DNA of 64,000 nucleotides, from the NCBI GenBank assembly GCA_021802545.1, contig JAJZRS010000009.1, positions 1 to 64,000 of the forward strand, written 5' to 3'. Below the pieces are notes generated by a model. It had not been told where the DNA came from. It made no database searches and saw only the letters and a program-made list of their open reading frames with translations. The translations under genes and the position numbers were made by a program. The stretch's first letter is position 1. Each line of letters begins with the position of its first letter. This DNA comes from Pseudomonadota bacterium (GTDB lineage: Bacteria; Pseudomonadota; Gammaproteobacteria; Burkholderiales; JABEVD01). Of the stretch, positions 8,149 through 16,036 are shown piece after piece.

Positions 8149-8568
8149 TTATTGGGGCTTGCCGCCCATGTCGATCGGTTTTCCCTGAGATAGGGAAGTG
8201 AGATAGGCGACGAGATCGGCGAGCTTTTCGCTGCCCGCATCCGGAGGATTGCCCTGCAGCGCGTTCTTCGTGCATGCGCGAATCTGGTCTTCCAGTGTCA
8301 CGACCTTTTGGGCCTTCGGATTGAAGCGAGGGAAAATCGCGGCCGCATTGGAAAGACTGGGAATCATCTTGCCGTTGGGCAGCTTGCCCGGGCCGACGCC
8401 TCCGTTGGAATGGCAGGCGTCGCACGTTTTGCCTTTGCCGCCGAAGGTTTCGTGGGAAAAAACCTGCTTCCCATCCTGGATCGCCGCTTCAAGCGGATTT
8501 CCCGCTGCAAGGGCAGGAATTCCCGCCGCGAGGAGAAGCGCACCTAGCAATGCTCCGGAAAATTTCAT
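8149..8568 (-). CDS. Periplasmic c-type cytochrome at the end of the sox operon (SoxA-like fold; SoxX position unfilled)
   Basis: A 139-residue exported protein with a signal peptide (cleavage near AALA-A, about residue 22) and one heme c site, CDACH at 49-53. The region after the heme, TLEDQIRACTKN ... LVAYLTSLSQGKPI, closely parallels the end of the SoxA encoded in the same operon (TLQQRYRQCAKN ... FMTYMSNGLPM), including the Cys (99) that in SoxA can ligate heme. It may replace SoxX as electron acceptor of the SoxAX complex or act downstream of it. No typical soxX was found in the window, so I do not assign that name. Confidence 0.8.
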   Translation of the reverse strand: MKFSGALLGALLLAAGIPALAAGNPLEAAIQDGKQVFSHETFGGKGKTCDACHSNGGVGPGKLPNGKMIPSLSNAAAIFPRFNPKAQKVVTLEDQIRACTKNALQGNPPDAGSEKLADLVAYLTSLSQGKPIDMGGKPQ

Positions 8569-8598: not shown

Positions 8599-9114
8599 TC
8601 AGGGGGTGACCAGGAGGTATCCCGACTTTTCGAAATCGACGACTGCGCCGATCCCCGAGACGACGCGGCGCGAGAACGGAAGCAGGTCATCCGGCGTATA
8701 TCCCTTCAGCTTCATGGCGACCGAGCATTCGTACATCTTCACGCCAGCCTTTGCCATGTACATGAGCAATTTCTTGTTGGGGTTGCCTTTGGGATGGGGG
8801 TCTTTGACCTTCGCATCATAGGCATCGTCGCTCAGGAGAAATTGCGCGCCGTCCGCCCTGAAGACCATGACGATCTCATAGTCCTTTCCTGCCTGCATGC
8901 CCAGCGCCTTGTACTGATCGACGAGATTCATCGTCCCGAAGATCTGCTTGGATATGCCGTTCCTCGGGATGACATCGACATGGTTGATCTGGACGACCAC
9001 CTTGAGGCCGGTCTTGTTGGCAATCTGGAGCGGGTCTTCATGCGCCAGGTCTTCGGCAAAGACGGCATTGCCGGACAGGACAAGCGCAAAAAACAGCAGA
9101 AGCAATTTCTTCAT
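8599..9114 (-). CDS. Exported DsrE-family protein
   Basis: The 171-residue protein has a clear signal peptide (cleavage after AVFA, residue 20) and a DsrE/DsrF/YchN-like alpha/beta domain: KVVVQINHV as first strand, then EIVMVFRADGAQFL, and Cys130 in KMYECSVAMKLKGY at the position of the sulfur-carrying Cys of DsrE-type proteins. Family members carry or transfer persulfide sulfur. Here the protein would act in the periplasm beside the Sox enzymes. A strong GAGGAG ribosome site precedes the ATG. It is seventh of eight genes in the operon and parallels 10679-11194. Confidence 0.8.
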   Translation of the reverse strand: MKKLLLLFFALVLSGNAVFAEDLAHEDPLQIANKTGLKVVVQINHVDVIPRNGISKQIFGTMNLVDQYKALGMQAGKDYEIVMVFRADGAQFLLSDDAYDAKVKDPHPKGNPNKKLLMYMAKAGVKMYECSVAMKLKGYTPDDLLPFSRRVVSGIGAVVDFEKSGYLLVTP

Positions 9115-9130: not shown

Positions 9131-10627
9131 TTAAAAAGTATAGGTGCATGCGATGTCTATGCGATTGCCGATAGAGCCGGCAATGATGCTCGCATCAGTG
9201 AGCTGCGTCCTTTGGGCGGCTTGTAATGCGACAGGCGACTGCAGATAGGACAACGGGTTGGGTACGCTGGCCTTGCGTATTTCGTAGTTGACCAGGAATC
9301 TCAGATTCTTGCTGTAGAAATACTGGGCGCCGTAGGTCACGGTTGAAACCAGTCTTTCGTCGTAGGCGGAATTCTTCAGCTTGTCGAGAGTGTCATACCG
9401 GATGTCAGCTTCCCATTTGGGGGCAAATTTGTACCCCATGTCCACATAATAGCCATCCGCGGTATTGGAGGAAGCAAGCATCATCTGGTCTACCGGCTCG
9501 AATGCCGCGCCGCCGACGTCGAGGAAAGGCGCAATGACGCCGTAATAGATCATGCCTGCCGCCTTGATGTATTCACCGCCGATTCTCAAGCCATGATCCA
9601 TGTACTTGGCGCCTACCCCTTCGCGTACACGGCTATAGTCTGTCCCGGCATAGTTGCGCCTGCCGTCCTGATACCAGGCGTAAGCCGAGGCATCCTGGCG
9701 AAATGCTCCGGATCCGCCGAAGATGTAGGATGCCTGGATGCGGCCTGAAATGTCGTAATTGCCGTTGTTGGCAATATCGAGTCCGTTTCCGTCGCTGACC
9801 ATGAGGGCGTATGAATATTCCCATTTCCCCTTGTCGATCCAGTCATAGGCTTCGATGCCCATGTCCCTGAATGCGCCGACAGGTTTGTCGTTCAGGGCGC
9901 CCATACAGTATGTGCCAGGGCCGGGAATACCTGCGCCACCCGCGCAGGCTCTCTGCAGCGACAAGGCAGGTATGGCGTTGGTGTACGCCGGATTGAGGTT
10001 GACCTGGGTCGAGGGGACGCCCAACATCGGCACTTCCTGGCGCCCAGAGTAATAGGGGTTCACGAAGCGTTCGTTCAAAAGCTGGTCTGAAACGTTAGTG
10101 AGGTTGGCATAATTCATTGCAGGTTCACCTTGCATCGCCTCCTCCCCCAGAGGAAGCCTGCCGATGCCGACCCTAAGTCTGGTTGCAGGCAGGTTGACGC
10201 TGATCGTGGCGTCGGTAATGGCGGGCGCATACCTGAATGAATTGGGATTCTGTTTCACCACAGTGATGCCGTTGTATCCCAATTCGGCAAGCAGGAAATA
10301 GTTGATCTTGCCATCCGTTCCGGGCATGATGCCCCTTACACCCGGCCTTGCGCGGAATACCTGTACGGCATTCTGATGGGAAAAATCGGGGCCGACGAGA
10401 TTGTTGATCGAGTCCTGGCCGTTGTAGTGCGTCAGCTGGGGCGGTGCGACGATGCCTGCGACGGCATTGCCCTCGTTGTGCACCAGTTCAGGCTGGATGA
10501 ACCCCCAGAAGTGGGCGGTATTCCTTGATCCGGGCGGTTCGTTGTTCTCGAGCTGAAGCCAGTTTGTCGCTTGAGCCGTCTGGCTGAAAGCGCAGAGCAC
10601 TGCTAATGAAATAATTCCCCTTTTCAT
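9131..10627 (-). CDS. Outer-membrane porin-like beta-barrel protein
   Basis: The 498-residue protein has a signal peptide (cleavage near TAQA-T, about residue 20) and a C-terminal aromatic residue (ending CTYTF), the signal for outer-membrane insertion. Alternating aromatic/polar strands run throughout (for example YGAQYFYSKNLRFLVNYEIR), as in phosphate/anion-type porins. It sits inside the sox operon between two DsrE genes, so it could admit thiosulfate or another sulfur anion; this is inference from position only. A short Cys-containing loop occurs at about residues 228-241 (CAGGAG ... YC). Confidence 0.75.
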   Translation of the reverse strand: MKRGIISLAVLCAFSQTAQATNWLQLENNEPPGSRNTAHFWGFIQPELVHNEGNAVAGIVAPPQLTHYNGQDSINNLVGPDFSHQNAVQVFRARPGVRGIMPGTDGKINYFLLAELGYNGITVVKQNPNSFRYAPAITDATISVNLPATRLRVGIGRLPLGEEAMQGEPAMNYANLTNVSDQLLNERFVNPYYSGRQEVPMLGVPSTQVNLNPAYTNAIPALSLQRACAGGAGIPGPGTYCMGALNDKPVGAFRDMGIEAYDWIDKGKWEYSYALMVSDGNGLDIANNGNYDISGRIQASYIFGGSGAFRQDASAYAWYQDGRRNYAGTDYSRVREGVGAKYMDHGLRIGGEYIKAAGMIYYGVIAPFLDVGGAAFEPVDQMMLASSNTADGYYVDMGYKFAPKWEADIRYDTLDKLKNSAYDERLVSTVTYGAQYFYSKNLRFLVNYEIRKASVPNPLSYLQSPVALQAAQRTQLTDASIIAGSIGNRIDIACTYTF

Positions 10628-10678: not shown

Positions 10679-11194
10679 TTATTTTTTCGGCGCTTCCGGC
10701 ATCTGTATCGGGATGATCAGGTTGTATCCCATCGATTCGTAGTGCGCTATGGTCGGGTAGGCGCCTGAATTGACGACGGCGCGATTCTTTTCGTCCAGGC
10801 CTTCCATGTCTGCAGGCTTGAGTCCCATGCTGTGAACCGAATTGCCGCAAAACTCGACTTGGACGCCTTTTCCAGCTAGGGCAGCCCACTTGTCCACGAT
10901 GCCCTGATGGTCGAGATAGTTCTTTTTGGCAAATACGGTGACGAAGGGCCCCTCGATGACCACGGCAAGCTTTGCGCCTGGATGCTCGAGCACTCGGGTC
11001 GCGACCATCGTGGCGTATTTGACTGCATCGATGTCTTTGGCTTTCAGATCCATGATGATTTTCAGATCCTTGTAGTGCACCGAGCTGTGATCGACAGCCG
11101 TCCCTCCCGGTGCAAAGGAATCGTCGTCTGCGATGGCCTGCAATGAAGACAGCCCGAAAAGCGCAATAATTGCCAGTTTCAGAATCGATTTCAT
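10679..11194 (-). CDS. Exported DsrE-family protein (second copy in sox operon)
   Basis: The 171-residue protein has a signal peptide (cleavage near AIA-D, about residue 22) and a DsrE-like fold: LKIIMDLKAKDIDAVKYA, then KLAVVIEGPFVTVF, and Cys116 in VQVEFCGNSVHSMGLKPAD, the conserved sulfur-carrier Cys position. It follows soxB by 29 bases and is about as long as the other exported DsrE protein but clearly diverged from it. Probable role: binding or relay of sulfane sulfur in the periplasm, or acting with the DsrE domain of the anti-sigma factor (15320-16036). Confidence 0.8.
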   Translation of the reverse strand: MKSILKLAIIALFGLSSLQAIADDDSFAPGGTAVDHSSVHYKDLKIIMDLKAKDIDAVKYATMVATRVLEHPGAKLAVVIEGPFVTVFAKKNYLDHQGIVDKWAALAGKGVQVEFCGNSVHSMGLKPADMEGLDEKNRAVVNSGAYPTIAHYESMGYNLIIPIQMPEAPKK

Positions 11195-11223: not shown

Positions 11224-12933
11224 TCATGCGATACCCAAATTGCCTTCCACACCGATGAGTTTCGGCTCATTGAGCTTTCTCGGAGAAATCACCTGCTTTT
11301 CCCTGAGGTAGCTCGCCACCACTTCCCATACCGGTTCGCCTTTTGCCCCCTGCGCTACGGGCGCCCAGCCAGCAATTTTGTATTTCTTCCCTGCTTCCAT
11401 GCGCTTTCCATTGAGCGCGAGATTGTCTATCCGCTTGCCGTATCCTTGCGTGAGATCGCAGGTATAGGTGATTCTGCCGACGCGCACCATGTCGCCGCCC
11501 TGCTGCTTGTAGGGATCGGGATTGAACAGGTTGTCGAGCACATCCTCGAGGATGGCCTTGATGGTTTCCCCGGTCATCGCCGTCGTGGTGGTTTGCGGAT
11601 AGGTGATCGCCGTCTGGTCCATCAGGTGTTCCATGGTGATGGCTTCCCCCGGAAGCAGCGACGTGCCCCACCTGAATCCTGGAGAAAATGCGGCGTCAGC
11701 GCCCTTCATTTCGATCAGCGCATCAAGGATCAGCTGATCGAAAGTGCCGTTGAAGTTGCCGCGCCGGTAAAGCAGGCCTTCGGTGACGGCAAGTTTCTCG
11801 GCAAGCTTGCCTTCGAACGGCTTGCGCACTTTTTTGATGAGCTCCTCCATTTCCGGATCGGGGTCCAGCAGATTGGAGAAAACCGGGAGCAGCTTGTATC
11901 TGTAGCCGGCAACCTTGCCGCCTTTGACGTCGAGATCGAGCACGCCGAGGAATTTTCCGTTGGAGCCCGCATTGGTCACCAGGGTCTGCCCCTTCGCATT
12001 CTTGACGACAACCGGCGCCGGCACGCCATCGTGGGTATGTCCTCCCAATATGGCGTCTATTCCGGTGATTCTTCCCGCCATTTTCAGGTCGACGTCCATG
12101 CCGTTGTGGGAAAGGAGAACAATGACCGCAGCGCCCTTGGCCCGAGCCTCATTGACGGTCTGCTGCATGTTGTCTTCCTGGATGCCGAAAGTCCAGTCAG
12201 GTGTCATGTATCGCGGGTTCGCAATGGGCGTGTAGGGGAATGCCTGCCCGATGATGGCAACCGGAATGCCGTTGATTTCCCTGATCGCGTAGTGTTTGAA
12301 CACGGGGTCGCCGAAGTCTGCCGTCTGGACGTTCTGGGCCAGAAAATCGATTTTCCCCTTGAAGTCCTTGTCGACGACCTCCTTGACTCTTTCAGCCCCA
12401 TAGGTGAATTCCCAATGACCGGTCATCACGTCGACGCCCAGCAGCTTGCAGGCATCCACCATGTCCTGGCCGTTCGTCCAGAGGGACGTGGCGGAACCCT
12501 GCCATGAATCGCCCCCGTCGAGCAGCAGCGCGCCAGGGCGGCTTGCGCGCATTTTCTTGACGAGCGTGGAAAGATGGGCGAACCCGCCGACCTTGCCGTA
12601 GATTTTTGCAGCATGTTCGAAATCGAGACAGGTAAAGGCGTAAGCCTCTTTCGTTCCCGGACTGATGCCATATGCCTTCAGGAAATGTTTGCCGACGAGA
12701 TGGGGGGGCTTGCTGAGGCTGCCGCCCACACCGATGTTGACGCTGGGTTCCCTGAAATAGATCGGCATGAGCTGGGCATGGCAATCGGTGAAGTGCAGCA
12801 GCGAGACATTGCCGTACGGCGGAAGCTCGTAATCATTGAGCGGCGCCGAAAAAGCTGTGCGGCTGCCCGGAACGAGGCCGGCGGCTGTTGCCATGGCCAG
12901 GAGGTGCATGAATTCTCTGCGGTTCAGTGACAT
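11224..12933 (-). CDS. soxB: Thiosulfohydrolase SoxB
   Basis: The 569-residue protein is a dimanganese hydrolase of the 5'-nucleotidase/metallophosphatase fold that removes sulfate from the SoxYZ-bound sulfur chain. The N-terminal NRREFMHLLAMATAAGL is a Tat signal. Metal-binding motifs are visible: FTDCHAQL (about 47), DGGDSWQGS (about 138), SHNG (about 276) and GGHTHDG (about 301). Length is typical of SoxB. It lies 3 bases downstream of soxA. This is a marker gene for Sox-dependent thiosulfate oxidation. Confidence 0.97.
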   Translation of the reverse strand: MSLNRREFMHLLAMATAAGLVPGSRTAFSAPLNDYELPPYGNVSLLHFTDCHAQLMPIYFREPSVNIGVGGSLSKPPHLVGKHFLKAYGISPGTKEAYAFTCLDFEHAAKIYGKVGGFAHLSTLVKKMRASRPGALLLDGGDSWQGSATSLWTNGQDMVDACKLLGVDVMTGHWEFTYGAERVKEVVDKDFKGKIDFLAQNVQTADFGDPVFKHYAIREINGIPVAIIGQAFPYTPIANPRYMTPDWTFGIQEDNMQQTVNEARAKGAAVIVLLSHNGMDVDLKMAGRITGIDAILGGHTHDGVPAPVVVKNAKGQTLVTNAGSNGKFLGVLDLDVKGGKVAGYRYKLLPVFSNLLDPDPEMEELIKKVRKPFEGKLAEKLAVTEGLLYRRGNFNGTFDQLILDALIEMKGADAAFSPGFRWGTSLLPGEAITMEHLMDQTAITYPQTTTTAMTGETIKAILEDVLDNLFNPDPYKQQGGDMVRVGRITYTCDLTQGYGKRIDNLALNGKRMEAGKKYKIAGWAPVAQGAKGEPVWEVVASYLREKQVISPRKLNEPKLIGVEGNLGIA

Positions 12934-12936
12934 GAT

Positions 12937-13761
12937 CTACTTTCTGAAAACCGGGGTCTGCATTGGAAGGCCGTTGCTCATGTAAGTCATGAAATATTCC
13001 AGATCATTGTATGTTTCGCTGTTCAGGTTCAGCGGCTTGCCGCCAATGTTCTTCGCGCACTGGCGGTAACGCTGCTGCAATGTCATCAACTGGGTGCCGC
13101 CGATGAACTCGGGATAATGGGTCGCCTGCCCGACCATCATCGATACCTTTTCTCCATTGATGGGTTTGCCCGCATGGTCGACATGGCAGCTTGCGCAGGA
13201 TTCCTCATCCTTTCCGTGCTTTTCGTAGTAGTAGCGCCTGCCTTCGAGATAGGCGGACAGCGCGCCTTTTCCCCCGACTTTAACTGCGACCTTCATGCCA
13301 TCCGATAAACTCTTCGCGTAGGCGGTGATGAGCCCCATTTGCTTTCCGCCATATTCCAGAAGTTTTTCTCCGTTGATGCCCAGGCATGCATTGACGGCAT
13401 TTTCGAAGGTCACGACGCGGCGGGTATTGTCATCGTAATAGGGGTAGTTGCCTGCGATATTTTTGCCCCCGTTTTCGAAGCATGAAGCAAAGGTTTTTCC
13501 ATTCTTGAAGGGTTTTCCCCACAAAGCCTGGCCTTCGTCCACATCGATCGAGAAGGGCGGGAAGGACATGATGTCGTCGTATTGGCGCTTTGCCGGCGCA
13601 TCCATCGAAAAGGTGCCGTAAACGTAATCCGTGAATCCGACATTTGGCAAAAGCGCATGGTAATGATCGAGAAGGGCCTGTCTGTCTTCAACGGGGCCCG
13701 CATGGGCAGCAGGCTGCAAACAGACTGCCGACAGCATGATGGTGCAGATCGTCTTGATCAT
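12937..13761 (-). CDS. soxA: L-cysteine S-thiosulfotransferase subunit SoxA (monoheme form)
   Basis: SoxA with SoxX attaches thiosulfate to the SoxY cysteine. The 274-residue protein has a signal peptide (through AAHA, residue 21), an N-terminal domain that has lost its heme motif (CFENGG at 94), and one C-terminal heme site CASCH at 189-193, with Cys235 in RYRQCAKN as the active-site/ligand Cys. It is thus the one-heme type. The start is the ATG at 13761, one base after the soxZ stop; an upstream in-frame ATG at 13782 would lie inside soxZ. Confidence 0.95.
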   Translation of the reverse strand: MIKTICTIMLSAVCLQPAAHAGPVEDRQALLDHYHALLPNVGFTDYVYGTFSMDAPAKRQYDDIMSFPPFSIDVDEGQALWGKPFKNGKTFASCFENGGKNIAGNYPYYDDNTRRVVTFENAVNACLGINGEKLLEYGGKQMGLITAYAKSLSDGMKVAVKVGGKGALSAYLEGRRYYYEKHGKDEESCASCHVDHAGKPINGEKVSMMVGQATHYPEFIGGTQLMTLQQRYRQCAKNIGGKPLNLNSETYNDLEYFMTYMSNGLPMQTPVFRK

Positions 13762-13762
13762 G

Positions 13763-14077
13763 TCAGGAAATGACCGTTTCACCGTAAAAATTGGTGCCCA
13801 GATTGTCTACTGCGCTGATCGCGACTTTGTCGCCAGTTTTTGCCCCTTTGATCTTGAAGCCGAAGAAGGGATTTTGCGAGATCGCTACGCCCCATTGCAT
13901 GTCGAGGACGGTCTTTCCGTTCAGGGTGGCGTTGACCTGATTGATGAAGTGGGCGGGAATGAGTTTCCCTGTTGCCTTGTCCTTCCTCAGTCCGGTTTCC
14001 ATGACGTGCTTGATCAGCACCTTGACTTCTGCAACGTCGCCCTGCATCTTTGCGCGCATTTTCATTGAATTGTCCAT
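13763..14077 (-). CDS. soxZ: Thiosulfate oxidation carrier complex protein SoxZ
   Basis: A 104-residue immunoglobulin-like protein that dimerises with SoxY. Family motifs present are VLIKHVMETGLRKDKATG and IPAHFINQVNATLNGKTV. No signal peptide is seen, as usual, since SoxZ is carried out by the Tat signal of SoxY. A GGAGAA ribosome site precedes the ATG, 15 bases after soxY. Confidence 0.95.
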   Translation of the reverse strand: MDNSMKMRAKMQGDVAEVKVLIKHVMETGLRKDKATGKLIPAHFINQVNATLNGKTVLDMQWGVAISQNPFFGFKIKGAKTGDKVAISAVDNLGTNFYGETVIS

Positions 14078-14092
14078 GACTTTCTCCGGTTT

Positions 14093-14545
14093 TCAGCCGC
14101 CGCAGCCGCCGATTGTGACTTTGATTTCCTTGCCTGTCGTGTAAACCTTGTCTCCCGCCTTCACGGCTACTCTGACGGTTGAGGTTTTCGCCATCTTGAT
14201 GTGCGTGGCGACGTAGGGTTCGGCGCCGTCCGAAAAGAAGAAATCGGCGACCAGCGGGTTGGGGTTTTTCTCGGCAAAAATGGCCATGGAAACAGTGCCG
14301 GGGATGTTGCTCGTCACTTCCACTGGAACGATGGAGCCGTCTTCCGCAATGTCGGGGACCTTGAGGACGATGTCAGTGCTGTCGGCCGCGCCGCCGTATC
14401 CTGCATCCATCATCGCATCCATCACCGTCTTCGCCGAAAAAGCCGTCTTGTTCCAGGTTGCGGCCAGGAGTTCGACCGGCCTCAATAGGCCGACCAAGAA
14501 GGCGGCCGCAATGCCTTTTAGGAAGGGTCTGCGTTGTAAAATCAT
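14093..14545 (-). CDS. soxY: Thiosulfate oxidation carrier protein SoxY
   Basis: The 150-residue protein carries sulfur intermediates on a C-terminal swinging-arm cysteine. The C-terminus is TIGGCGG, the diagnostic GGCGG arm. The N-terminal RRPFLKGIAAAFLVGLL is a Tat-type signal. First gene of the eight-gene sox operon; its promoter (14592-14619) matches that of the divergent ECF sigma gene. Confidence 0.96.
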   Translation of the reverse strand: MILQRRPFLKGIAAAFLVGLLRPVELLAATWNKTAFSAKTVMDAMMDAGYGGAADSTDIVLKVPDIAEDGSIVPVEVTSNIPGTVSMAIFAEKNPNPLVADFFFSDGAEPYVATHIKMAKTSTVRVAVKAGDKVYTTGKEIKVTIGGCGG

Positions 14546-14591: not shown

Positions 14592-14619
14592 AAGACGTGT
14601 GACAGTCATTTTTTATTCC
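14592..14619 (-). promoter_or_regulatory. Candidate ECF-sigma promoter of the sox operon
   Basis: On the minus strand: GGAATA (14619-14614), a 16-base spacer, then CGTCTT (14597-14592). GGAAT-type -35 and CGTC-type -10 elements are standard for ECF sigma factors. The pattern lies 46 bases before the soxY ATG. The identical two hexamers at identical spacing occur on the other strand before the sigma gene. Confidence 0.7.
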
Positions 14620-14645: not shown

Positions 14646-14673
14646 GGAATAATCTCGGATGCAGATACGTCTT
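14646..14673 (+). promoter_or_regulatory. Candidate ECF-sigma promoter of the sigma/anti-sigma operon
   Basis: GGAATA (14646-14651), 16-base spacer, CGTCTT (14668-14673) on the plus strand. The hexamers and spacing equal those of the divergent sox promoter while the spacers differ in sequence, as expected for two promoters of one ECF sigma factor, including autoregulation. Confidence 0.7.
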
Positions 14674-14707: not shown

Positions 14708-14776
14708 ATGCGGCAGAGCTTGGAGCTTTCATGCGGGAATCCGTTCGTTAGTGGCAACGCTGGGTTGCCAAAATGA
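14708..14776 (+). CDS. Possible 22-codon leader peptide overlapping the sigma gene
   Basis: An ATG at 14708 with a strong GGAGAGGGT ribosome site reads MRQSLELSCGNPFVSGNAGL then PK and stops with TGA at 14774-14776, overlapping the sigma-factor ATG as ATGA. The sigma ATG itself has no clear ribosome site, so translational coupling is likely. The peptide has no recognisable domain and contains one Cys. Confidence 0.5.
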   Translation: MRQSLELSCGNPFVSGNAGLPK

Positions 14777-15327
14777 AGATACTCTCCCTGTTGTGCCGCA
14801 CGGATGCCCTGCAGGATCAATTGGAAAAAATGCGCCCGAAGCTGTATCGGGTGGCTTATTCCTGGAGCCACAATGCCGCGCTTGCGGACGATCTTGTGCA
14901 GGAAACGCTGATCAAGGCGCTCCAGAATGCCAAACAGCTTCGGAACGCCGAAGCGATGAATGGCTGGTTGTTCGCCATATTGGCAAATTGTTGGCGCGAT
15001 CATTTTCGCCAAAGCAGGGAAATGGACGATGTCGAAGAGATCGAGCGTGTCGATGAATTCACGCCGGAAGACGGGCATGCCCAGTCCCAGCTTGTATCGC
15101 GTGTAAGGAACGCGGTGGCCAGACTGCCTTTGGGGCAGCGGCAGGTGCTGACGCTTGTCGACTTGGAGGAGTTTTCTTATGCGGAAGTTTCGACCATACT
15201 TGAAATTCCGGTCGGAACCGTCATGAGCCGCTTGTGCCGAGCACGCAAGACATTGAAAACGCTGTTGTACGAACTTGCACCGCAGCAGGCTCAAGTCAGC
15301 CAAATTCGGAGGATTCGAGGTGTCTAA
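14773..15327 (+). CDS. ECF-type RNA polymerase sigma factor
   Basis: The 184-residue sigma-70-family protein contains only regions 2 and 4. Region 2 (about residues 20-85) includes LYRVAYSWSHNAALADDLVQETLIKAL, the core-binding and -10-recognition helix. Region 4 (about 120-170) includes LPLGQRQVLTLVDLEEFSYAEV and GTVMSRLCRARK, the -35 helix-turn-helix. It overlaps the following anti-sigma gene and is divergent from the sox operon, both preceded by GGAATA-N16-CGTCTT. It probably drives sox expression and its own. I cannot place it in a numbered ECF group. Confidence 0.92.
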   Translation: MKILSLLCRTDALQDQLEKMRPKLYRVAYSWSHNAALADDLVQETLIKALQNAKQLRNAEAMNGWLFAILANCWRDHFRQSREMDDVEEIERVDEFTPEDGHAQSQLVSRVRNAVARLPLGQRQVLTLVDLEEFSYAEVSTILEIPVGTVMSRLCRARKTLKTLLYELAPQQAQVSQIRRIRGV

Positions 15328-16036
15328 TCCAAATTTTTCTGATGAATTATTGAATGCATTTGTCGACGACCAGCTCGAGGCCGGGGAGAAATCCTGCGTT
15401 TTTGCGGAGATGGAGCACGATGAAGCGCTGAAATCGGCCGTATGCGAACTTCGCGGACTGAAGGAAATGACTCGGCATGCGTACCAGAATCCGCCGGCCA
15501 GCAAACTCGCCGCACTGAAAAGGCATCCGCTGCGGGAGATCCAGGCTTTGGCGGCATGCCTGCTCCTGCTGGTGATGGGCGGCGTGTCGGGGTGGCTTAT
15601 TTCCACGCTGACCGATTCCGGAGATCTCGTTCATCTTTATCAGGCGATCGCGCGCAACGACAGCGGTACATCGCCCAGCAAATTCATGGTTTACGTCGGC
15701 AATGCCGATCCGGTGAGGATGAAGAGCGCGCTCGACGAATCAGAGAACCTGCTTGCAACGGCCGATCAGGGAAATCGGGAAATTCGGGTTGAAATCATCG
15801 CCAATGAAAGCGGAGTGAACATGCTTCGTGCCGGCGTATCGCATTATGCTGCCCGCATCGCCGAGATGCAGACGAAATATCCGAATTTGAGCCTGGTGGC
15901 ATGCACGCAAACGCTGAACAAGCTGAAAAAGAAAGGCGTTGACGTCCGTCTCCTGCCCAATATCAGGTCGGTTTCTTCTGCTGTGGAAGAAATCAAAAGG
16001 CGCCTGGAAGAGGGGTGGGATTATGTCAGGGTCTAA
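15320..16036 (+). CDS. Transmembrane anti-sigma factor with periplasmic DsrE-like domain
   Basis: I start it at the GTG at 15320 (GGAGG site 7 bases upstream), overlapping the sigma stop codon; 238 residues. Residues 1-55 (ELLNAFVDDQLEAGEKS ... CELRGLKEMTRHA) resemble a short anti-sigma domain. Residues about 74-97 form one membrane helix. Residues about 121-235 are a DsrE-like alpha/beta domain (KFMVYVGNADPVRMKSAL, REIRVEIIANESGVNML, then VACTQTLNKLKKKGVDVRLLP), with Cys195 at the sulfur-carrier position shared with the two exported DsrE proteins of the sox operon. Topology places this domain in the periplasm. It probably senses a sulfur species and releases the sigma factor. The fusion is read directly; the sensing role is inferred. 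Confidence 0.8.
   Translation: MSNPNFSDELLNAFVDDQLEAGEKSCVFAEMEHDEALKSAVCELRGLKEMTRHAYQNPPASKLAALKRHPLREIQALAACLLLLVMGGVSGWLISTLTDSGDLVHLYQAIARNDSGTSPSKFMVYVGNADPVRMKSALDESENLLATADQGNREIRVEIIANESGVNMLRAGVSHYAARIAEMQTKYPNLSLVACTQTLNKLKKKGVDVRLLPNIRSVSSAVEEIKRRLEEGWDYVRV

Follow-up and report, generated by a model that had tools for sequence, protein, structure and literature searches.

How a sulfur-oxidising bacterium might read sulfur compounds outside the cell is the question raised by a small operon in the window analysed here, a stretch of 64,000 nucleotides (positions 1 to 64,000, forward strand) of contig JAJZRS010000009.1 from a Pseudomonadota bacterium of the order Burkholderiales (lineage JABEVD01). 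At 15320-16036 (plus strand, GTG start) the window encodes a 238-residue protein that an initial annotation, made from the letters alone, had read as an anti-sigma factor with a periplasmic DsrE-like sensor domain, beside a sox operon. The available text of the 2024 SoxT paper (PMC11582611) calls the sensing of external sulfur by the regulators of sulfur oxidisers poorly understood, and its model carries the signal via a membrane transporter to cytoplasmic repressors; a sensor exposed at the outer side of the membrane and coupled to a sigma factor whose promoter is sharply defined would answer the question in another way. We consider it fairly probable that the anti-sigma factor and the extracytoplasmic function (ECF) sigma factor encoded just upstream form a transmembrane sulfur-signalling switch, in which a sulfur signal on Cys195 frees the sigma factor.

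The protein is laid out as an anti-sigma domain (residues 1-57), a membrane helix (about 73-98) and a DsrE domain (about 120-238), with the codon of Cys195 at 15902-15904. In the AlphaFold model, for which an alignment of 12 full-length homologues from the same order served as input, mean pLDDT is above 90 in every ten-residue block of residues 121-230 and 85 in the last block, with low values in the linker. Foldseek matches this domain to the PDB entries of MTH1491 (1l1s, E 6e-9), DsrEFH (2hy5_A, 1.5e-5) and YchN (1jx7, 4.9e-4), other top matches being ST0148 (2pd2) and 8uja, a designed cage built on a DsrE-like protein, and the VIA comparison returns ten DsrE-like entries at Z 11.3-17.8 ahead of the next, unrelated entry at Z 7.3. 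Among those ten, 2hy5, 2qs7, 3mc3 and 3pnx are titled DsrE; 1l1s, 2pd2 and 2fb6, titled as of unknown function, we take to be members of the same family. The profile of the anti-sigma family matches MTH1491 at E 2.3e-10, and the DsrE domain sequence on its own matches 1l1s at 1.7e-8, with Cys195 falling on the 1l1s cysteine. The reactive cysteine of DsrE proteins lies at the end of the fourth strand, where cysteines of this family are known to carry bound sulfur, and Cys195 ends the strand formed by residues 190-195 of the model.

Single-sequence scans of the protein against Pfam and NCBIfam gave no match at E 0.1, the gathering score of PF02635 was not reached (this model matches 2 of 12 members at E ≤ 1, best 0.0007), and no Pfam or NCBIfam model names a combination of anti-sigma and DsrE domains. 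The DsrE assignment is thus carried by the profile and fold comparisons, which overrule the reading of the C-terminal domain as one of no known family that the null scans alone suggest. Pairwise BLAST likewise found no significant similarity to the two exported DsrE proteins of the neighbouring sox operon, and the multiple alignment (seven rows used; L013, L014 and L017 left out) puts Cys195 with the cysteines of both. Profile-profile comparison of the anti-sigma DsrE domains with the exported DsrE family gives a probability of 99.5% and E 3.3e-22, cysteine on cysteine. Model and alignments together confirm a predicted DsrE fold with Cys195 at the DsrE cysteine position; the initial annotation is therefore upheld on the domain, by the confident model of residues 121-238 and the 1l1s profile match, and on the equivalence of Cys195 with the exported DsrE cysteines, on which BLAST is silent and the other two comparisons agree. 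The protein has both this fold and the cysteine at the end of strand four in common with DsrE, DsrF, TusD and YchN (MTH1491 1l1s, DsrEFH 2hy5, TusBCD 2d1p). The well-known relay members of that family are soluble and cytoplasmic; unlike them, the window protein is membrane-tethered, predicted to be periplasmic and fused to a regulator.

Such a protein is not a one-off, and by sequence the window protein is a member of a wide family. A scan of one genome per species gave 137 relatives, and the best 80 of the 137 loci were analysed; they hold 83 full-length anti-sigma-DsrE genes, each with an ECF gene directly upstream at a distance of -6 to +38 nt. With the window protein these make 84 sequences, which fall into 45 clusters at 70% identity with a median pairwise identity of 35%. 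Cys195 is present in 84 of 84, and no second conserved cysteine occurs in the DsrE domain across the set; because homologues were recruited by an N-terminal pattern, N-terminal conservation is biased, and that of Cys195 is not. Hosts with names include Sulfuricella, Sulfurimicrobium, Sulfuritalea, Thiobacillus, Acidiferrobacter, Thiohalobacter, Thiogranum, Chromatiales, Cupriavidus sp. BIS7 and Pandoraea terrae, many other host bins carrying only the label Proteobacteria; Sulfuricella sp. T08, Cupriavidus sp. BIS7 and Pandoraea terrae are among the hosts whose genomes carry no metagenome-bin label. A single scan of viral contigs yielded no relative, and 12 plasmid records match the DsrE part only, none of them covering 80% of the query. 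In a tree built from few columns and with long-branch warnings, all 84 anti-sigma DsrE domains stand on one side of a branch with support of 100/98, consistent with a single fusion event. Three loci (L068, L086 and L104) carry two complete pairs each.

The N-terminal part was modelled separately, as residues 1-77, because the VIA list from the full model spans residues 114-238, and it forms three confident helices. At E ≤ 10 Foldseek returns 13 PDB chains for it, all weak, 12 of which come from five anti-sigma entries (RslA, ChrR twice, RsiW and MucA; anti-sigma matches at E 2.9-9.9), and the two top PDB sequences of the profile are both MucA-type anti-sigma factors (6in7, E 0.054; 8z6g, E 0.1). 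On these combined weak scores, from models and sequences alike, the domain qualifies as a class I anti-sigma domain of the RseA/ChrR/RsiW type, in agreement with the short anti-sigma-like region claimed at the outset. The most hydrophobic 19-residue segment begins at residue 76 and the AlphaFold helix spans 73-98 at partly low confidence, which fits the single helix at about 74-97 of the initial annotation. Four lysine or arginine residues (K/R) lie in the 15 residues before this helix and none after it, and K/R before the helix exceed those after it in 80 of the 84 sequences (equal in 2, fewer in 2), so that the DsrE domain should be periplasmic and the N-terminus inside. The motif of zinc-binding anti-sigma (ZAS) factors, HxxxCxxC, is absent from the family, Cys42 having no second cysteine three residues on in the 84 homologues. 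No ArsR-type winged-helix DNA-binding domain was found in the pair, the architecture being sigma plus anti-sigma. In its helical N-terminal domain, single membrane helix, gene position after the ECF gene and autoregulatory site the protein resembles the class I factors RseA, MucA and RsiW, from which it differs in having as its outer domain a DsrE fold whose cysteine is invariant.

What the sigma factor may control is indicated by promoter-like sites. The ECF gene (14773-15327, plus strand) overlaps the anti-sigma gene by 8 nt and matches Pfam Sigma70_r4_2 (E 1.5e-16), Sigma70_r2 (E 1.2e-14) and, over its cut-off, the NCBIfam sigma70-ECF model TIGR02937 (E 9.5e-25). Spaced-word enumeration in 82 regions upstream of ECF genes found GGAAT-N17-CGTC in 74 of them and in none of five shuffles. 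In its exact form, GGAATA-N16-CGTC, the site occurs 127 times in the 80 loci against 2 occurrences of the reversed pattern; 122 of them are found in the 1650 nt ahead of an anti-sigma stop codon, and the remaining 1.16 Mb contains 5. An exact site precedes 73 of the 83 ECF genes, and a back-to-back pair of sites is found in 43 of the 80 loci. With spacers of 15-17 there are 136 sites in the loci, compared with 8.7 in shuffles, and sorted by the gene ahead they comprise 59 at ECF genes, 40 at stand-alone DsrE genes, 3 at soxY, 5 at anti-sigma frames, 1 at a SoxB-like gene, 9 at other genes and 19 with no gene called. This dyad in front of the ECF genes of DsrE-bearing anti-sigma pairs is new here, and by sequence it qualifies as a putative autoregulatory promoter common to ECF and target genes.

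In the window itself the only exact sites are two predicted promoters, one before the ECF gene (14646-14671, plus strand) and one before soxY (14594-14619, minus strand), the latter with a counterpart at the same position in L036 and L037, two loci of the same genus. Permitting one mismatch gives 4 sites where about 3 are expected, so the weight rests on the exact pair and its place. The whole genome (2.77 Mb) holds 3 exact sites, 2 of which are this pair; the third, rejected as a target, lies antisense in a transporter-like frame and is apparently due to chance. Since paired exact sites stand at the ECF gene and at soxY, the sigma factor very probably directs transcription of both its own operon and the sox genes in this genome, a link between ECF promoter and sox that is stronger than the initial annotation could see.

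The sox run lies on the minus strand, divergent from the ECF gene with 227 nt between them. It begins with soxY (14093-14545; TIGR04488, E 6e-47), soxZ (13763-14077; TIGR04490, E 4.4e-39), soxA (12937-13782; TIGR04484, E 1.1e-56) and soxB (11224-12933; TIGR04486, E 5.3e-263), all over cut-off, and continues with the gene of an exported DsrE-family protein, DsrE_b (10679-11194; Pfam DsrE 4.6e-6), a Porin_O_P-type outer-membrane porin (9131-10627; PF07396 7.2e-5, 22.6 bits, cut-off 20.9) and a second exported DsrE-family protein, DsrE_a (8599-9114; Pfam DsrE 5.5e-9). Both DsrE proteins are over the Pfam cut-off and have hydrophobic N-termini, as expected of the two exported proteins that had been ascribed to this operon. 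The porin sits between the two DsrE genes, and related porins recur near 31 of the 83 homologues, which suggests outer-membrane passage of a sulfur compound.

Across the family an exported stand-alone DsrE gene lies within 6 kb of at least 53 of the 83 homologues, a figure from a greedy gene choice that skips some open reading frames (ORFs), and of 59 when every ORF is counted. In the family of these exported proteins (61 neighbours plus the two of the window) the cysteine is kept in 63 of 63 and a hydrophobic segment precedes the domain in 62. Sox genes occur in 12 of the 80 loci (L036, L037, L039, L049-L054, L065, L066 and L075). Six of these (L036, L037, L049, L065, L066 and L075) have a divergent sox side, and in each of them the first gene of the divergent operon has a site ahead of it, with spacer 16 (15 in L049). 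That first gene is soxY in two loci, soxC in two more, a YeeE/TsuA-like transporter gene in one and an exported DsrE gene in the one with spacer 15; in the remaining six the sox genes lie downstream of the anti-sigma gene on the same strand. A SoxB-like match in L073 showed only weak 5'-nucleotidase and phosphoesterase matches and was not counted as soxB. The initial annotation is corrected on this point, as the most constant partner is the exported DsrE gene and not sox. The predicted core regulon thus consists of the ECF/anti-sigma pair and an exported DsrE gene; in some lineages, this one among them, sox also belongs to it.

This prominence of the exported DsrE genes raises a rather unlikely alternative, that the stand-alone protein, itself a product of the regulon, docks on the DsrE domain and thereby sets the state of the anti-sigma factor as feedback, Cys195 serving mainly to form the complex. 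DsrE proteins do form mixed oligomers such as DsrEFH, the stand-alone genes are frequent both near the pair and behind the sites (40 of 136), and the two DsrE families are homologous, the anti-sigma domains forming one clade beside the stand-alone ones. Against such docking, 24 of the 83 homologues lack a DsrE ORF in the surrounding 6 kb or so when every ORF is considered, with the proviso that some contigs end early.

Co-occurrence with soxB was surveyed in 399 genomes of the order, where carriers are the 50 with a one-piece full-length match (45 at E 3.7e-53 or better and, by hand count, 5 shorter matches of one genus). The surveys for soxB, dsrA and the anti-sigma gene scored a part of the candidates in each genome, which makes absences soft. 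Over its cut-off soxB is found in 185 of the 399 genomes, in 136 of the 349 non-carriers and in 49 of the 50 carriers (in these at E 2.2e-187 or better; the exception, G302, is 91% complete), an association with a Fisher p of 2.7e-17, uncorrected for descent. Only matches over the cut-off were used because calling presence at E 0.001, which gives 257 of 399 genomes, also gives 10 of 14 controls. One genome that is 66% complete (G350) has its anti-sigma match in two pieces and no soxB seen, and is counted among the 349, like G003. At least 14 of the 50 carriers, belonging to seven genera in four families, have soxB no more than 10 kb from the pair, where about 1% per genome is expected; together with the 49 of 50 this bears out the genomic association with sox that had been posited. 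Reverse dsrA was tried as a fixed companion and rejected, as carriers such as G086, G097, G165 and G200 have no dsrA match over cut-off.

Paired sites, 47-65 nt from start to start, are present in at least 18 of 30 carriers and, in the full listing, in 0 of 30 non-carriers, 26 of which have soxB. The same-genus non-carrier G003 has a single site before its sox genes, and its contig ends 9 nt past the site, so the missing pair probably reflects an assembly break. That the window holds an ordinary envelope-stress ECF pair, placed beside sox by chance and with the DsrE domain as an inert spacer, is very improbable. It would agree with the 68 of 80 loci that have no soxB, soxY or soxZ in the stretch analysed, several of these stretches being short, and it is at odds with the paired sites at soxY and DsrE genes, with the proximity of soxB in carriers and with the invariance of Cys195.

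If a signal is received on Cys195, its chemistry admits further readings. The cysteine, perhaps with a Dsb-type partner, might be a thiol-redox sensor that reports periplasmic disulfide stress or an oxidant; we regard this as unlikely, the family having no second conserved cysteine in the DsrE domain and its occurrence tracking soxB (49 of 50 carriers). In its favour, DsbC-type genes of one cluster occur in L039, L051, L052 and L054 (Pfam on two), and a thioredoxin-like DUF255/DsbD_N protein is encoded divergently in L101. The available text of PMC11582611 also proposes that DsbA-like and SoxS proteins take part in sulfur transfer in Hyphomicrobium denitrificans, so that Dsb-type neighbours do not separate redox sensing from sulfur sensing.

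More unlikely still is a non-covalent signal by sulfite or thiosulfate, of the kind proposed, with sulfite, for the ECF26 pair RpoE1/RpoE4 of Sinorhizobium meliloti. Metabolism of thiosulfate and taurine activates these factors, which control sorT, as far as the accessible text of PMC3511301 goes, and soxC is the first gene of the divergent operon in L066 and L075. The invariance of Cys195 and the general knowledge of DsrE proteins as carriers of cysteine-bound sulfur speak against it. So does the lack of any mention of a DsrE domain in the part of PMC3511301 at hand.

The sulfur switch that we prefer draws on the computed features, namely the domain make-up, predicted topology, invariant cysteine, ECF pairing, paired promoter-like sites and soxB co-occurrence, and takes anti-sigma action and the DsrE cysteine as sulfur carrier by analogy from known families; we infer the ligand, the sign of the response (that the signal releases the sigma factor) and the route of release. 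At rest the cytoplasmic N-terminal domain would hold the ECF sigma factor. The periplasmic DsrE domain would then receive a sulfur signal on Cys195, for which sulfane sulfur from polysulfide or SoxYZ and a thiosulfonate from tetrathionate or thiosulfate are candidates. As DsrE and TusA proteins transfer thiosulfate in work cited in the available text of PMC9861516, a thiosulfonate on Cys195 is as possible as a persulfide. Delivery might be direct or by way of the stand-alone exported DsrE proteins that the target genes encode, and the sulfur-loaded domain would change its state or oligomerisation and so free the sigma factor. The freed factor would drive the GGAATA-N16-CGTC promoters that precede its own operon and the divergent sulfur genes. 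The latter would here be soxYZAB with the two exported DsrE genes and the porin, and in further lineages an exported DsrE gene that is often accompanied by a porin. The full periplasmic relay, in which sulfane sulfur from the Sox carrier or polysulfide passes to an exported DsrE protein, on to Cys195 and thereby frees the sigma factor, we put forward tentatively, as a possible but doubtful form of the switch. Were it true, beta- and gammaproteobacterial sulfur oxidisers would read external sulfur without importing it, a metabolic carrier fold would act as receptor, and the exported DsrE protein would be both product and co-receptor.

Several points weigh against the sulfur switch. The case is built on sequence and predicted structure; model segments 58-73 and 87-116 are below pLDDT 50, and the best VIA Z of the N-terminal domain, 5.9 to RslA, may reflect a common helical-bundle arrangement and alone proves little. 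The near-invariant cytoplasmic Cys42 would also suit cytoplasmic thiol sensing. Sox genes stand in only 12 of the 80 loci, and the co-occurrence counts are affected by shared descent. Single exact sites form a frequent background (the 30 non-carriers have 85, the 30 carriers 181 and also 46 sites of the reversed pattern), so that only place and pairing carry weight. In 11 carriers with soxB elsewhere (G022, G036, G054, G097, G112, G150, G186, G216, G245, G357 and G382; all sites listed) none of the exact sites in the 5 kb around the best soxB match points at that gene, the site of G216 that lies 1.2 kb from soxB being on the other strand, and sox is therefore not a universal direct target.

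With these points weighed, the DsrE-bearing anti-sigma factor is probably an outward-facing sulfur sensor of sulfur-oxidising bacteria, and the relation of the proposed switch to known systems can be stated. SoxR, and sHdrR with SoxT1B, of Hyphomicrobium denitrificans are ArsR-type repressors according to the available texts (PMC10451225, PMC12423496, PMC11582611); the present proposal shares with them a cysteine-based control of sox by sulfane sulfur. In those texts SoxR is fed through a membrane transporter, whereas the predicted sensor of the window faces the periplasm and works via a sigma factor. The genome of the window has no match to Pfam Sulf_transp (SoxT/TsuA-type), SoxR-type repressors not having been searched for, so that there is no clear sign of the importer-fed route described in the accessible part of PMC11582611. 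ECF control of sulfur-compound oxidation is itself already known from RpoE1/RpoE4, likewise an autoregulated ECF/anti-sigma pair, which differs in its stimulus (metabolic sulfite), its target (sorT) and in that the portion of PMC3511301 at hand describes no DsrE sensor. TspS/TspR of Acidithiobacillus are also proposed to regulate sox and differ in using a two-component and sigma54 route in place of an ECF/anti-sigma pair (PMC12194929, available text). A literature search that did not extend to the 2021 ECF reclassification, where an entry may exist, found no DsrE-bearing anti-sigma factor and no pathway of this design, which accords with the initial annotation. PMC10512742, PMC12563154 and PMC9861516, in the text available, use DsrE and anti-sigma for unrelated things. 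With one cysteine, one promoter sequence and one reporter the sensing question becomes testable, and the targets predicted for the sigma factor, namely exported DsrE, porin and sox, point to functions for two proteins that are so far uncharacterised.

Some further features of the loci may be recorded. Cys42 (codon at 15443-15445) lies in the third helix of the cytoplasmic domain and is kept in 80 of 84 homologues without the zinc motif. The best NCBIfam equivalog of the window's ECF factor is PRK12511, under its cut-off, and the anti-sigma gene is followed by a convergent gene of a CitMHS-type transporter. The last gene of the sox run encodes a small SoxA-like cytochrome c (8149-8568, minus strand; PF21342 1.4e-14, over cut-off), whose sole NCBIfam match is the SoxA model TIGR04484 at 58.8 bits, under the cut-off of 110; no soxX was identified near it. 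DsbC-type or thioredoxin-like genes lie near the pair in L039, L051, L052, L054 and L101, with a promoter-like site before the DsbC-type gene in L051 and L052. Finally, nine loci (L056, L063, L069, L070, L080, L081, L084, L097 and L110), two of them named Acidiferrobacter, share a common gene order in which the pair has no divergent DsrE gene, is preceded by genes that look like purM and purN and is followed by a lactonase-type beta-propeller gene (Pfam on L110).

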